A DNA stretch of 64,000 nt from Leptotrichia shahii (GTDB lineage Bacteria > Fusobacteriota > Fusobacteriia > Fusobacteriales > Leptotrichiaceae). A model generated the notes under the pieces. That model did not search any database. It was not told the origin of the DNA and was given only the letters and a program-made list of their open reading frames with translations. Shown here in pieces: positions 47,377-57,094 of the stretch. Positions within the stretch are counted from its first letter, which is position 1, and each line of letters starts with the position of its first letter. Position numbers and translations under genes: made by a program. The stretch is from assembly GCF_008327825.1 (NCBI RefSeq), contig NZ_AP019827.1, forward strand, positions 248,001 to 312,000, given 5' to 3'.

Positions 47377-47418
47377 AATATATATTGGTTTATAATATAT
47401 AAATCATATAGAAAAATA

Positions 47419-47560
47419 TAACCAAAGACAGTAGGTAGAATTAAAATTCTTTAAACCCTACCGAGGTAAATATTATTACAAATAGATATTAAAGTTAAAT
47501 AATAAATATTTTTATAATATGATACCTCTGGGCTTATTGTTTTTGTTTCAGAGGTTTTTA
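47419..47560 (+). ncRNA. L10 leader (autoregulatory, with terminator stem)
   Basis: ACCAAAGACAGTAGGTAG (47421-47438) and CCCTACCGAGGT (47456-47467) match the conserved core of ribosomal L10 leaders, where L10-L12 binds. Further on, ACCTCTG (47524-47530) pairs with CAGAGGT (47549-47555) followed by T residues, a terminator stem; GAGGTAA (47463-47469) could pair instead with the ATACCTC (47522-47528) region to form an alternative structure. This is the known attenuation design for rplJL. Confidence 0.8.
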
Positions 47561-47580
47561 TTATAAGGAGGTGAAGTGAA

Positions 47581-48911: not shown

Positions 48912-51900
48912 ATGAACAAACTTATTGAAAGATATAGTTTCGGAAAAATAGTAGACAGAGGGGAAATGCCGCACTTCTTAGAATTTCAAATAAATTCTTA
49001 TGAAGATTTTTTGCAGACAAAAGTGCCGCCTCAAAAGAGAGAAAATAAAGGTTTTGAAGCGATCTTTAATGAAATTTTTCCAATTGAATCCAGCAATGGA
49101 TTATTGAAATTAGAATACTTATGGTATGAAATTCATGATAATGATGAGCCTTTAAATGATGAATTGGAATGTAAAAAAAGAGGTAAAACGTATTCTGGTC
49201 AATTAAAAGTTAGATTAAAATTAACTAACAAGAGAACAGGAGAAATTCAAGAGACATTAGTTCATTTTGGAGATATACCGCTTATGACTGATAAAGCAAC
49301 ATTTATTATAAATGGTGCAGAAAGAGTCGTTATTTCCCAATTACACAGATCACCAGGAATTACTTTTAACAAAGAATTGAATATTCAGACAGGAAAAGAT
49401 GTGTTTATTGGAAAAATTATCCCTTATAAAGGAACATGGCTTGAATTTGAAACTGACAAGAATGATATTTTAAATGTAAAAATTGATAGAAGAAAGAAAG
49501 TTTTATTGCCTGTTTTCCTTAAAGCAGTTGATTTTTTCCACAGTAATGAAGAAATTATGAATGAATTTTTTGAATTAAAGAAAGTAGAATTGTCAGAACT
49601 TTATTCAAAGTATAGAGATACTGAGTTGGAAGAAATTTTGCGTTCACGATTAGAAGGAAGTTTTGTAAGAGAAGATATTTTAGATGAAGAAACTGGAGAA
49701 TTTGTAGCGGAATCGGAAGAAATTATTGATATGCCTGTCATTCAGAGAATAATTGACGCAAAAGTACCTGTACTTAGTATTTGGGAAGTAAAACCTGAAG
49801 ATAGAATTATTGCTAATGCTTTGGTTCACGATAATACAAAAAACAGTGATGAGGCTGTTATAGAAGTGTTTAGAAAATTACGTCCAGGAGACTTGGTAAC
49901 TGTGGACAGTGCCAGATCGCTTGTTAAACAGATGTTTTTTAATCCACAAAGATATGATTTGGCAGATGTTGGAAGATACAAGGTTAACAAAAGATTAAAA
50001 CTGGAAGTTCCAGCAGATGTAATTGTATTGACAAAAGAGGATGTTTTACAGACTATTGAATATGTGAAAAATCTTGTAAGCGGAGAAGGATTTACAGATG
50101 ATATTGACAATTTGTCAAATAGACGTGTAAGAGGTGTTGGAGAGCTGCTTTCCATCCAAATAAAAGGTGGAATGCTTAAAATGTCTAAAATGGTCAGAGA
50201 AAAAATGACAATTCAAGATATCACAACATTGACTCCACAAAGTTTATTAAATACAAAACCATTAAATGCGTTAATTCTTGAATTTTTTGGAAGTGGACAG
50301 CTATCACAATTTATGGATCAGTCAAATCCGTTATCTGAATTGACTCATAAGAGAAGAATTTCGGCATTAGGACCGGGAGGGCTTTCTAGAGATAGAGCAG
50401 GATTTGAGGTTCGTGACGTTCATAACTCGCATTATGGAAGAATTTGTCCAATAGAAACTCCAGAGGGACCAAACATCGGACTTATCGCTTCACTTTCAAC
50501 TTATGGAAAAGTTAATAAATACGGATTTATTGAAACTCCGTTTGTAAAAATAAATGATGGAAAAGCTGATTTTAATGATATTAGATATTTAGCCGCTGAT
50601 GAAGAGGAAGGACTGTTTATCGCACAGGCTGATACTCCTATTGACAAAGATGGAAACTTCTTGACTGATGAAGTTGTGTGCCGTTACGGAGATGAAATTG
50701 TACATATTGATAAGTCAAAAGTTGATATTTTGGATGTGTCGCCTAAACAGCTAGTATCTGTTTCAGCGGGATTAATTCCATTCTTGGAACATGATGATGC
50801 CAATCGTGCGTTAATGGGGTCAAATATGCAGCGTCAAGCCGTACCATTATTAAAAACTCAGGCTCCTTATGTAGGAACTGGGCTTGAAAGAAAAGTTGCT
50901 GTGGATTCGGGAGCAGTTATTACTTCAAAAGCAGCAGGAACTGTAACTTTTGTAGATGCAAGAAAAATTATTGTAACTGATGAAAATGGAAAAGAACATT
51001 ACCATAGATTACTAAACTTTGAAAAATCTAACCAGTCAATGTGTTTACATCAAAAACCAATTATTGACTTGGGAGATAAAGTTAAAAAAGGCGATATTAT
51101 TGCAGATGGACCATCTACTGCAGGTGGAGATTTGGCATTAGGTAAAAATATCCTGCTGGCATTTATGCCTTGGGAAGGATATAACTTTGAGGATGGAATC
51201 CTTATTTCTGAAAGACTTAGAAAAGATGATGTATTCACGTCAATTCATATTGAAGAATTTGATATTGAGGCAAGAACTACAAAATTAGGAGATGAAGAAA
51301 TTACAAGAGAAATTCCTAATGTTTCTGAGGAAGCCTTGAGAAACCTTGATGAAAATGGAATTATAAGAATAGGAGCTCACGTAATTCCTGATGATATTCT
51401 TGTTGGAAAAGTAACTCCTAAAGGGGAAACTGAGCCACCAGCAGAAGAAAAACTATTACGTGCAATCTTTGGGGAAAAAGCAAAAGATGTAAGAGATACT
51501 TCATTAAGACTTCCGCATGGGGTAAAAGGTACTGTTGTAGACGTACTTGAGTTATCTAAGGAAAATGGAGATGATTTGAAAGCTGGAGTAAATAAACTAA
51601 TCAGAATTTATATTGCGGAAAAAAGAAAAATAATGGTTGGGGATAAAATGTCTGGACGTCATGGAAACAAAGGGGTAATTTCAAGAGTATTGCCAGTCGA
51701 AGATATGCCGCATTTAGAAAATGGAACACCAATAGATGTTTGTCTTAATCCGCTTGGAGTACCATCACGTATGAATATTGGACAGGTTCTGGAAGTGCAT
51801 TTGGGACTTGCAATTGGAGATATTGACAAATATATTGCAACGCCAGTATTTGACGGAGCAAGTGAAGAAGATGTTAAAAATTACTTGGAAGAAGCTGGAT

Positions 51901-52358
51901 ACAGCAGAACTGGTAAAGTAAAACTAATTGACGGAAGAACTGGACAGCCATTTGACAATCCAGTAACAGTTGGACGTATGTATATGCTAAAACTTCACCA
52001 CTTGGTAGAAGATAAAATGCATGCCAGAGCAATTGGACCATACTCACTTGTTACTCAGCAGCCACTTGGAGGAAAAGCCCAATTTGGTGGACAAAGACTT
52101 GGAGAAATGGAAGTTTGGGCATTGGAAGCCTACGGTGCGTCAAATATCCTTCAAGAAATGCTTACAGTTAAATCAGACGACATTAGCGGAAGAACAAAAA
52201 CTTATGAAGCTATCGTAAAAGGACAGGCAATGCCAGAAGCAGACGCTCCAGAATCATTTAGAGTATTAATTAAGGAATTCCAGTCACTTGGACTAGATGT
52301 GGCTCTTTATGATAAAGATGGGGAACAAATTGAATTAGATAAAAATGTAGATGCTTAG
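48912..52358 (+). CDS. rpoB: DNA-directed RNA polymerase subunit beta
   Basis: The 1148-residue beta subunit. Recognisable blocks include the fork loop/rifampicin region ([45 protein letters not shown], then [16 protein letters not shown]), the catalytic lobe ([26 protein letters not shown]), [13 protein letters not shown] and the C-terminal clamp segment ([24 protein letters not shown]). In the rifampicin pocket the usual resistance positions look wild type (Q, D, H, S as in [16 protein letters not shown]). It is shorter than the E. coli protein because the beta insertions are absent. AGGGAGG precedes the ATG. Confidence 0.98.
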
Positions 52359-52378
52359 TAAAATTAAATATAAAATAG

Positions 52379-52402
52379 CAAGGGGGTCTTGACCCCTTGT
52401 TG
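52379..52402 (+). repeat. CAAGGGG hairpin, family copy D, after rpoB
   Basis: CAAGGGG and CCCCTTG arms (52380-52400) around GTCTTGA, with the same flanks (GC before, TTGAAA after) as the copy at 5714. It separates rpoB from the following gene and could weaken read-through. Confidence 0.75.
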
Positions 52403-52439
52403 AAAATTAATAAAAATAAGAACAATTTTGGGAGAGAAT

Positions 52440-52955
52440 ATGAAAAAAATATTTTGTTTAGCGATTGTTTTAGCAGTTTTTGTGAATGTTAATACATTTT
52501 CTGCAACTAGAAAATCAAATTCGAATAAAAAAAATTCATCTAGTCAAATAAATTCAGAGGCAGCACAAGTTGCATTAAAATTTTTAAAAGAGTATACAGA
52601 AGTTTTAGAAAACAATACGACAGGTATTCCAAATGATGTATCTAATCCAGAAGATTATGATGTAGAATATATTTATTTTAAAACAACGGATTTAATTACA
52701 GAAAGATTTAGAAATGAGTTATTAAAATTAACCGTAGAATGTTATTCTGAGGAAGACGGCTGCGGTGCAGATTTAATTACAGGACACCAATATTATGATC
52801 CTAAATTAAAAATTCTTTCCTATAATTCTAATAAAGTAATTGTAATAATTCAAGGTATTGATATGCCTGACTTTAAAGTTAAAGTAAAAGTAAAAAATGT
52901 AAATGGAAAATGGCTAGTCGATAATTCAGGTGCTCCTGACATGGTAGACTGGTAA
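52440..52955 (+). CDS. Secreted protein of unknown function between rpoB and rpoC
   Basis: A 171-residue protein with a signal peptide (MKKIFCLAIVLAVFVNVNTFSA) likely cut after A22, followed by a basic S/N/K-rich linker. The mature part has segments AAQVALKFLKEYTEVLENN, FKTTDLITERFRNELLKL and VKVKVKNVNGKWLVDNSG; the layout (helix, then a curved sheet ending in a K-W-L-V strand) recalls small NTF2-like/DUF3828 secreted domains. It also contains two close cysteines (ECYSEEDGCGA). ATG 52440 is preferred over TTG 52428 owing to the GGGAGAG site. A secreted protein is not expected between rpoB and rpoC. Confidence 0.8.
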   Translation: MKKIFCLAIVLAVFVNVNTFSATRKSNSNKKNSSSQINSEAAQVALKFLKEYTEVLENNTTGIPNDVSNPEDYDVEYIYFKTTDLITERFRNELLKLTVECYSEEDGCGADLITGHQYYDPKLKILSYNSNKVIVIIQGIDMPDFKVKVKVKNVNGKWLVDNSGAPDMVDW

Positions 52956-53026
52956 AAATAATTAAAGTTTTCCCACTTTACTTTTCAAAAAAAGTGGAAT
53001 TAAAGAATAGAGGAGGCTCTTAACGA

Positions 53027-56000
53027 ATGAGTATAAGAGATTTTGACAGTATTCAAATAAAGTTGGCATCGCCAGAAAAGATTTTGGAATGGTCGTATGG
53101 TGAGATTACGAAAGCCGAAACAATAAATTATAGAACATTAAAGCCTGAAATGGACGGATTATTCTGTGAGAGAATATTTGGGCCGTCTAAGGACTATGAA
53201 TGTGCCTGCGGGAAGTATAAGAGAATGCGTTACAAAGGCATGGTTTGTGAAAAATGTGGTGTTGAAGTGACAACTTCAAAAGTTAGACGTGAAAGAATGG
53301 GACATATTAAACTGGCTACACCGATTGCACATATTTGGTATTCTAAAGGTACGCCCAACAAAATGAGTCTTTTGTTGGGAATTAGCACAAAAGAATTGGA
53401 ATCAGTTTTGTATTTTTCAAGATATATTGTAACTGATCCTGGAGAAACTGGGCTTGAAAAAGGTCAAATTTTGACAGAAAGAGAATATAAATTGCATGAA
53501 AGTCAATTTAAAGGTGAGTTTACAGCAAAAATGGGTGCTGAAGGAGTTTTAACTTTACTTGAGGAAATTGATTTACATGAATTGGAAAGTAAACTTCAAA
53601 ATGAGATGGATGTGGAACATTCTACACAAAAAAGAAGAAAAGTTATAAAAAGATTAAAAGTAGTAAGAGATTTGATAGAAGCTGGAAATAGACCTGAATG
53701 GATGATTTTAACTGTGTTGCCAGTTATTCCAGCTGATTTAAGACCGATGGTTCAATTAGATGGTGGAAGATTTGCTACTTCTGACTTGAATGATTTGTAT
53801 AGAAGAGTAATTAATAGAAATATCAGGCTTAAAAAATTGATGTCAATTAAAGCTCCTGAGATTGTAATAAAAAATGAAAAGAGAATGTTGCAGGAAGCTG
53901 TAGATGCGTTAATTGATAATGGTAGACGTGGAAAACCTGTTGTTAATCAAAGCAACAGGGAATTGAAATCACTTTCTGATATGTTAAAAGGGAAACAAGG
54001 ACGTTTTAGACAAAATTTATTGGGAAAACGTGTGGATTATTCAGGAAGGTCGGTTATTGTCGTTGGACCAAGCTTGAAAATGAATCAATGTGGATTGCCT
54101 AAAAAGATGGCACTTGAACTGTATAAGCCATTCTTGATGAGAGAACTTGTAAAAAGAGAATTGGCTTCAAATATTAAAGTTGCTAAGAAAATGGTAGAAG
54201 AAGAAGATGAAAATGTATGGGAATTGATTGAAGAAATTATTAAAAATCACCCTGTGCTTCTAAATCGTGCTCCAACGTTGCATAGACTTTCGATTCAGGC
54301 ATTTGAGCCAATCTTGATAGAAGGAAAGGCAATAAGACTTCATCCGCTTGTATGTTCTGCATTTAATGCGGATTTCGATGGTGACCAAATGGCAGTTCAC
54401 TTAGTATTATCTCAAGAAGCGCAAATGGAAGCAAAATTACTTATGCTTGCTACAAATAATATTATAGCTCCTTCCAATGGTGGACCGATAGCCGTTCCGT
54501 CACAAGATATGGTAATGGGATGTTATTATATGACGAAAGAGAAAAAAGGTTCAAAAGGAGAAGGAAAGGTATTTTCTAGCAGAAATCAGTTAATTACTGC
54601 TTATCAAAGCGGAAAAATATCAGTTCATGCTGTAGTAAAAGTTAGAGTGGAAAATAGTATTCTTGAAACAACACCAGGAAGATTAATGTTTAACTTAATC
54701 TTGCCAAAAGAAGTTAGAAATTATGGAATTACATTTGGTAAAAAAGAATTGAAAAATCTAATTGCTGAACTTTATAAGAGATATGGATTTGAAAAAACTT
54801 CAAAGTTACTGGATGATATTAAAGAATTTGGGTATCATTATGGTACACTTGCTGGAATTACAGTTGGAATTGAAGATTTGAAAATTCCTGAAACTAAAAA
54901 AGAAATACTTGAAAATGCTGAAAAAGATGTAGCAGAAGTTGAAAAACAATATAAAGATGGAGAAATTATTAACGAAGAAAGATACAGAAAAACAGTGGGT
55001 ATCTGGGCAGAAGCTACTGAAAGAGTTACAAAAGATATGATGGACAATCTTGATGAATTTAATCCAGTATATATGATGGCAAACTCTGGAGCCAGAGGGT
55101 CAATCGCACAAATGCGTCAATTAGGTGGAATGCGTGGACTTATGGCGGATACGCAAGGTAGAATTATTGAAATGCCAATTAAAGCGAACTTTAGAGAGGG
55201 GCTTAATATTTTGGAATTCTTTATGTCTTCGCATGGAGCCAGAAAGGGACTTGCCGATACTGCACTAAGAACCGCGGATTCAGGATATTTGACAAGAAGG
55301 CTAGTTGATATTTCACACGAAGTTATTGTAAATCATGATGACTGCGGATGTGAACACGGAATTGTCGTATCAGACTTGATGGATGCTGGGCAAGTTATTG
55401 AAAAATTAAGTGAAAGAATTTATGGAAGAAATTTGGCAACAGATTTGGTTCATAATGGAGAAGTTATTGCGACTAGAAATACTTTGATTGATGATGAATT
55501 GATTAAAAAGATTGAAGAATTGGATATTCGTGAAGTGGAAATCAGAACACCTTTGACTTGTAAATTGGAAAAGGGAGTTTGTAAAAAATGTTACGGATTG
55601 GATCTTTCTAACCACAAGGAAATTTTGAAAGGGGAGGCAGTAGGAGTTATTGCGGCACAGTCAATCGGAGAACCTGGTACACAGCTTACAATGCGTACTT
55701 TCCATACTGGAGGAGTTGCCACAGCAGCTTCTGTTCAATCTGATTATAAAGCAGATGTTTCTGGGAAAATTAAATTTAGAGATATTTCTACCCTTGTAAA
55801 TGAAGAAGGAAAGGAAATTGTTGTTTCTCAAAATGGACGTTTGATAATAGGAAAACATAGATATGAAATTCAATCTGGTTCAGTTTTACATGTAAAAGAT
55901 GGAGACACAGTTGAAAAAGGACAAGTCCTAGTTGAATTTGACCCTTATCAAACACCGATTATTACATCTGAAGAAGGTAAAGTGGAATTTAGAGATATTT

Positions 56001-57094
56001 ATGTGAGAGAAAATATTGACATAAAATATGGAGTTACTGAAAAAGTGGCAATAAAACCTGTGGAAAGTAGCGATGTAAACCCTAGAATTATAATTTATAC
56101 AAAAGATGACAGAAGAGTGGAATATGCAGTTCCTTATGGGGCATATTTAATGGTAAATGAAGGAGAAATAGTTAAAAAAGGGCAAACTATTACAAAAATC
56201 TTGAAAACAGGAGAAGGAAATAAGGATATTACTGGAGGACTTCCTCGTGTTCAGGAATTGTTTGAAGCGAGAAATCCTAAAGGAAAAGCTATTTTATCAG
56301 AATTTGCAGGACGTGTTGTATTCTCAGATAAAAAGAAAAAAGGTATGAGATTAATCCTAATTGAAGATCCTGAAACTGGGGAATTAATTCAAGAATATAC
56401 AGTTCCTGTGGGGGAACATCTGGTTGTAACTAATGAAATGTTAATCGAAAAAGGTGCTAAAATTACAGATGGACCAGTTTCACCTCATGATATCTTAAAA
56501 ATTAAAGGGCTTGTAGAAGCACAGCAATTTATTTTAGAATCGGTGCAACAAGTTTATCGTGAACAAGGGGTTGCAGTTAATGATAAGCATATTGAAATAA
56601 TAGTAAAACAAATGTTCCAAAAAATTAAGATTAAAGAAGCTGGAGATTCGCTATTCCTTGAAGATGAATTGATTGATAAGAAAATTGTGGAACGTGAAAA
56701 TGAAATATTGATTTCAAAAGGAAAACGTCCAGCAACTTATGAGCCTGTAATACAAGGTATTACAAAAGCTGCAGTAAATACAGAAAGTTTCATTTCAGCA
56801 TCATCATTCCAGGAAACAACAAAAGTTCTTGCAAATGCTGCAGTTGAAGGAAAAACAGACAGACTTGAAGGACTTAAGGAAAATGTAATCATTGGTAAGA
56901 AAATACCGGGAGGTACTGGTTTTAGAGATTATAAATATTTGGATGCAACTTTGAAAAGTGATATCGTAGAAGATTCTGAAGTAGAAATGGAAGCTAATAC
57001 GAATGAAGGAAATGAAGAAGTTGAGGCAGTTTCAGATGTTTTAGAAAATGAAACAGTAGAATTCGTAGAAAATACAGAAGAAACAGAAGTTTAG
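53027..57094 (+). CDS. rpoC: DNA-directed RNA polymerase subunit beta'
   Basis: The 1355-residue catalytic subunit. It has the N-terminal zinc ribbon ([23 protein letters not shown]), the lid/rudder region ([39 protein letters not shown]), the active-site [12 protein letters not shown] triad of aspartates, the bridge helix ([24 protein letters not shown]), the trigger loop ([38 protein letters not shown]) and the second zinc site (CGCEHG...[13 protein letters not shown]). The C-terminal 45 residues are acidic ([20 protein letters not shown]...). GAGGAGG precedes the ATG. The intervening gene and 71 bp separate it from rpoB. Confidence 0.98.

Follow-up and report, generated by a model that had tools for sequence, protein, structure and literature searches.

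Proteins of the DUF3828 family include Tai3, the structurally characterized BT_3511 (PDB 3KZT) and YbjP (PMC13082787, PMC3924330). Tai3, a periplasmic immunity protein, counters the effector Tae3, which is an amidase; more generally, DUF3828 genes pair with genes for NlpC/P60 amidases (PMC13082787, PMC3924330). The hallmark residues of the family are a Phe/Tyr pair, an Asp with a nearby Gln, and a C-terminal Trp (PMC3924330). A literature search returned nothing relevant on genes located between rpoB and rpoC.

Here we describe a gene at that position in Leptotrichia shahii, in a 64,000-nucleotide stretch of the chromosome (the window) for which the original prediction was a secreted-protein gene inserted between rpoB and rpoC. 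The product resembles Tai3 in its NTF2-like DUF3828 fold, in being exported, and in belonging to a family tied to peptidoglycan-hydrolase genes. It differs from Tai3 in sharing only 12% identity with it, in having no adjacent effector, in its altered QDX motif, and in being encoded within the RNA polymerase operon.

Organization of the rpoB–rpoC junction

The separation of 668 bp that had been predicted between rpoB and rpoC is exact, with rpoB ending at 52358, rpoC starting at 53027 and both flanking genes identified by Pfam. The closest named matches to rpoC belong to Fusobacteriaceae, at 81% and 77%. Both predicted occupants of the gap, a CAAGGGG hairpin and a gene for a 171-residue protein with a signal peptide, are present at 52379–52399 and 52440–52955, respectively. 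The features of this junction, referred to below as the slot, are as follows.

48912–52358, + strand: rpoB, an ORF of 1148 aa with RNA_pol_Rpb2 domains (Pfam); upstream flank of the slot
52379–52399, unstranded: CAAGGGGGTCTTGACCCCTTG palindrome, one variant member of an intergenic repeat dispersed in the genome, marking the 5' edge of the insert
52379–52583, + strand: constant leader module, comprising the palindrome, 5' UTR, ribosome-binding site, signal peptide and Ser/Lys linker (through the first 48 codons)
52430–52436, + strand: ribosome-binding site of the inserted gene, GGGAGAG, from the sequence
52440–52955, + strand: inserted gene for a 171-aa exported DUF3828-like (predicted NTF2-fold) protein, from the ORF, a structural model, and fold and profile matches
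52440–52505, + strand: predicted Sec signal peptide, by inspection, with cleavage after ...NTFSA and no lipobox
52584–52952, + strand: variable mature domain, defined by divergence from G005
52973–52997, + strand: conserved rpoC-leader hairpin, CCACTTT...AAAGTGG, found throughout the 13 genomes of the genus and also in sister genera, whether or not the slot is occupied
53010–53016, + strand: ribosome-binding site of rpoC, GAGGAGG, from the sequence, conserved across the family
53027–57094, + strand: rpoC, an ORF of 1355 aa with RNA_pol_Rpb1 domains (Pfam); downstream flank of the slot

The inserted ORF starts with the ATG at 52440, preceded by a good ribosome-binding site (GGGAG, 52430), and its Sec-type signal peptide, read by inspection, is MKKIFCLAIVLAVFVNVNTFSA, with T as the first residue after the cleavage site. 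An assembly artefact was ruled out as the source of the insert because three genomes share the layout: the genome of the window (G000) and two other carriers of the gene (G005 and G012). A search of Rfam found nothing at the slot itself. The only passing matches were one tRNA and, upstream of rplJ, the L10 leader (RF00557; window positions 47404–47569, 47 bits).

Distribution of genes at the junction

As the original prediction had assumed, adjacency of rpoB and rpoC is near-universal in the junctions compared. Across 78 junctions of diverse bacteria from many phyla the gap has a median of 46 bp, and in 76 it is no longer than 213 bp. The two exceptions (616 and 758 bp) are found in Candidatus Rhodobacter lobularis and Candidatus Staskawiczbacteria, where the gap contains an exported 192-aa ORF and a membrane-anchored 193-aa ORF, respectively, for which no resemblance to the window protein was noted.

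Within the genus, 10 of 13 congeners have a gap of 68–132 bp and no gene, and the remaining three have 627–668 bp and the gene. All three carriers hold it at the identical site, and it is missing from close sister species. The protein family was found in three of the 29 genera searched within the phylum, and in the slot only in this genus. The insert is therefore neither common nor ancient in the phylum, and to describe it as an inserted secreted-protein gene is correct.

The gaps read in other genera of the family are mostly 14–122 bp, with one of 220 bp that lacks a gene (G002). The gap of G003 contains a 38-codon lipoprotein-like ORF. A different gene, of 253–260 codons, occupies the slot in one g6 genome (G017) and in two of three g8 genomes (G021 and G022). 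The G017 gene clearly encodes a BPL_N protein (PF09825; E 1.2e-47), which is glutamine-amidotransferase-like; the G021 and G022 ORFs look homologous to it, and G020, of the same genus as these two, lacks it. Like the gene in the window, the BPL_N gene of these sister genera separates rpoB from rpoC, shares their strand and is upstream of the same leader hairpin, but its product is unrelated to the window protein and has no signal peptide. At least two unrelated types of gene are thus found at this junction, and the slot has been used more than once in the family. Two Fusobacteriaceae gaps (129–135 bp) contain strong, unrelated palindromes, so structure in the rpoB–rpoC spacer may be more widespread among fusobacteria.

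Phylogeny and mosaic structure of the insert

The three carriers are split on the rpoB/rpoC tree, each lying among genomes with an empty slot. They are also split among empty genomes on the independent gltX tree, where a constraint to one clade is rejected (p-AU 4e-50), and this tree carries its own signs of recombination. The empty genome G016 adjoins G000 in both trees, and the empty genome G014 adjoins G012 in the rpoBC tree. G016 and G014, which represent both subclades, have homologous spacers (alignment score of 69 against a best score of 45 among 500 shuffles, none of which was as good), and this spacer is missing from the carriers. Because sister genomes of both subclades share a spacer that the carriers lack, the alignments favour an empty ancestor followed by gain or lateral exchange by replacement, which fits better than many losses, with the caveat that the carriers number only three and that an empty allele spread by recombination could look like an ancestral empty state.

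Comparison of G000 with G005 reveals a sharp breakpoint within the gene. Identity is 92–98% across the UTR, signal peptide and linker and then drops abruptly; at the amino-acid level, 43 of 48 residues are identical in the leader and 40 of 103 in the mature domain. Synonymous differences number 1/42 in the first 48 codons and 16/38 in the body (Fisher p 1.2e-5). The same two genomes differ at 69 of 481 synonymous positions in rpoB, and the leader is lower than this as well (p 0.03). Vertical descent of a single gene would not produce this contrast between leader and mature body; the body has been replaced behind a constant leader. In the comparison with G012, leader and body do not differ in divergence, which would make the exchange involving G012 older or of a different kind. 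DNA searches across the genus, aimed at silent leader or body sequences, returned only the slot copies and AT-rich noise; they revealed neither a cassette store nor a donor for the swapped bodies.

These data bear on the alternative that the insert is ancestral, having entered once before the genus diversified and then diverged vertically, with loss in most lineages. The identical site, orientation and palindrome–gene order in the three carriers are consistent with a single entry, as is the closer similarity of the three slot proteins to one another than to their paralogues, and one gain with several losses keeps some likelihood because recombination could have carried the shared empty spacer between lineages. 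However, the homologous empty spacers across both subclades point to an empty ancestor, and synonymous change in the leader falls far below that in its own body and below that in rpoB. We regard an ancestral insert as rather unlikely, and lateral acquisition as the better account of the carriers.

Fold and likely role of the exported protein

Pfam and NCBIfam gave no match to the window protein, and the lead to its identity came from its fold. An AlphaFold2 model built from 11 relatives (pLDDT 74, with core blocks above 90) matches Tai3 with a Z of 12.6 (2.5 Å over 110 residues), 3KZT with a Z of 9.7 (Foldseek E 3.2e-4), and YbjP with a Z of 9.3. The model has an NTF2-like fold in which helices are followed by a four-stranded sheet, as in 3KZT. 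A sequence profile of the insert family also matches 3KZT (E 7e-4), and a phmmer search of PDB sequences with the G005 protein gave no match. By inspection of the alignment, F48, Y52 and W158 are kept in all or nearly all members, and an Asp and a Gln are found at the place expected for DUF3828 (GADLITGHQ in the window protein and DADSIIAGQD in G005, where the likeness to the DAD..I..QD-like region of DUF3828 is clear). The family thus carries the Phe/Tyr pair, the Asp with its nearby Gln, and the Trp near the C-terminus. None of the 33 genomes of the bacterial family has a member that reaches the curated PF12883 cut-off, however; the window protein has no hit and its best relative, G005, has an E of 0.059. 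Because PF12883 itself is not reached, the window protein is best filed as DUF3828-like, not as a DUF3828 member. A profile scan of wider genome contigs, from which near genomes were perhaps left out, found no relative of the insert.

The window protein lacks an intact version of the QDX motif linked to inhibition of Tae3 (it has HQYYD), and a GQD motif is kept in G005 (GQDAP) and in two of three paralogues at the hrcA locus. No amidase, effector or Tae3 gene lies beside the slot copy, whose neighbours are rpoB and rpoC. The paralogues are found in clusters of small exported genes and at two loci adjoin genes for LprI-type lysozyme inhibitors, with an Amidase_3 gene near one of them. Because paralogues adjoin LprI genes, DUF3828 genes pair with amidases, and Tai3 blocks one such enzyme, the window protein is most likely a putative periplasmic inhibitor or immunity protein acting against peptidoglycan-degrading enzymes, an assignment by model and analogy that is a lead and not a demonstration.

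At one locus (G000:C1:624500–631500), small genes for exported proteins are clustered with a paralogue and an LprI gene, and transposase pieces lie on both sides; the piece tested is IS630-type (Pfam). In three genomes, paralogues are located upstream of hrcA–grpE–dnaK, beside hrcA, and LprI-type genes accompany two of the three.

The protein might instead act, like YbjP, as a partner in envelope assembly or efflux; YbjP is among the best fold matches and is also exported. YbjP, however, is a TolC-bound lipoprotein restricted to some Enterobacterales (PMC13082787), whereas the window protein has a plain Sec signal and no lipobox. Its mature domain is also fast-changing, unlike an adaptor to a conserved partner, and its paralogues adjoin lysozyme-inhibitor genes. 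We therefore consider a YbjP-like role unlikely and retain a putative inhibitor or immunity function as the working assignment.

The CAAGGGG palindrome and transcription of the insert

The RNA stem of the CAAGGGG palindrome is stable (−15.4 kcal/mol, z −3.95, with none of 200 shuffles as good), but the element is not specific to this junction. Elsewhere, the G000 genome contains 27 exact copies of a perfect 20-bp palindrome, from which the window copy departs in having five Gs opposite four Cs (about 28 copies in total with this variant). The palindrome recurs in 10 of the 13 congeneric genomes; the 20 copies examined with their flanks all appear to be intergenic. At the slot, the palindrome is present in all three carriers and is degenerate in G012. 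The palindrome family has the form CAAGGGGTC..GACCCCTTG at 27 places in G000:C1, and a subfamily of about 115 bp with inverted ends, TTAGA..TGTTCGATAAC, is MITE-like in appearance; the window copy consists of the core only. The idea that these palindromes always precede exported genes was rejected, as most of the 20 copies lie between ordinary genes.

Despite the stability of its stem, the palindrome was rejected as a + strand terminator. No T run directly follows the stem on the + strand, where the tail is TTGAAAATT, and a terminator scan found terminator-like sites on the − strand only. Because the coding strand lacks a T-rich tail, transcription probably reads through the palindrome, and the inserted gene is likely to be co-transcribed with rpoB and rpoC. 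The claim that the gene has no promoter of its own finds weak support. The best + strand candidate, TTGACC-17-AAAAAT at 52389–52417, matches at 9 of 12 positions, which is within chance; promoter-like matches number eight, near the chance mean of 4.6 (sd 2.3); and in G005 an indel of 10 bp disrupts the spacing of the candidate.

The same data weigh against a cassette with its own weak promoter, or an attenuating palindrome, either of which would allow the gene and rpoC to be controlled apart from rpoB. The palindrome does contain the −35-like TTGACC and its stem is strong, but these promoter statistics, the absence of any + strand terminator-like match, and the decay of the palindrome in G012 make separate control of this kind improbable compared with readthrough from rpoB.

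A conserved hairpin upstream of rpoC

The original prediction that rpoC would rely on transcription past the hairpin is probably correct, but the weight it gave to the CAAGGGG hairpin was overstated, this being a dispersed repeat with no + strand terminator tail. The hairpin that matters to rpoC is likely to be a second one, at 52973–52997 and immediately ahead of the rpoC ribosome-binding site, which covaries and is also present in species without the inserted gene; it had gone unmentioned in the earlier reading. Its pairing is maintained in 98.7% of cells, against 34–56% in slid controls, and three of its seven pairs show two-sided changes. The alignment was made by hand with the loop removed, so that the count leans toward structure, and the slide and shuffle controls are clear. 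The hairpin is absent where the rpoB–rpoC gap is 14–29 bp and has no Rfam match; it is a possible unreported leader element. The hairpin would set or protect the translation of rpoC and allow cargo upstream to be tolerated.

The secreted protein had also been proposed to be made in step with RNA polymerase. From the position of the gene this is a reasonable expectation, but regulatory coupling to RNA polymerase is unsupported. An adaptive form of the idea, in which output of the exported protein is deliberately matched to that of RNA polymerase, draws on the operon location and on the exported or membrane-anchored ORFs inserted in the two unrelated bacteria with long gaps. Against it, 10 of 13 congeners lack the gene and have no visible replacement, the slot protein of the sister genera has no signal peptide, and the outside cases number just two. 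We consider an adaptive position very unlikely.

A model for the junction

The explanation that we favour, to which we give about an even chance, is that the rpoB–rpoC junction is a tolerant cargo slot holding a laterally acquired, exchanged and body-swapped cassette that is co-transcribed with rpoBC and encodes a putative periplasmic inhibitor. The slot would lie upstream of the conserved rpoC-leader hairpin in Leptotrichia-like bacteria. The cassette, composed of the palindrome, a ribosome-binding site and the exported DUF3828-like gene, would have been acquired laterally and have taken the place of an ancestral spacer of 50–70 bp. The simplest route for its exchange between species would be homologous recombination via the nearly identical rpoB and rpoC flanks, with the mature domain swapped behind the constant signal-peptide leader. 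Transcription from rpoB would continue through the palindrome, which lacks a terminator tail, and so carry the gene on the rpoBC mRNA. Translation of rpoC would be kept independent of the inserted gene by the rpoC-leader hairpin and ribosome-binding site. The product would be a periplasmic protein that, like Tai3, inhibits or confers immunity to enzymes that degrade peptidoglycan.

A broader proposal, which we hold more tentatively than this one, is that the junction, which joins one of the most conserved gene pairs in bacteria, is in this family a recurrent exchange site, with the ultra-conserved flanks serving as recombination arms, the covarying hairpin as insulation of rpoC, and cargo that includes diversifying, exported, immunity-like genes built of a constant leader and a swappable body and expressed at the level of RNA polymerase.

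If the model is correct, an essential operon acts as a recombination landing site for accessory, and possibly defensive, genes. This meaning is based on a slot that accepts at least two unrelated genes, one of them with an exchanged mature domain behind a constant leader. The conserved RNA hairpin before rpoC may have a role in balancing the subunits of RNA polymerase, which is open to direct test.
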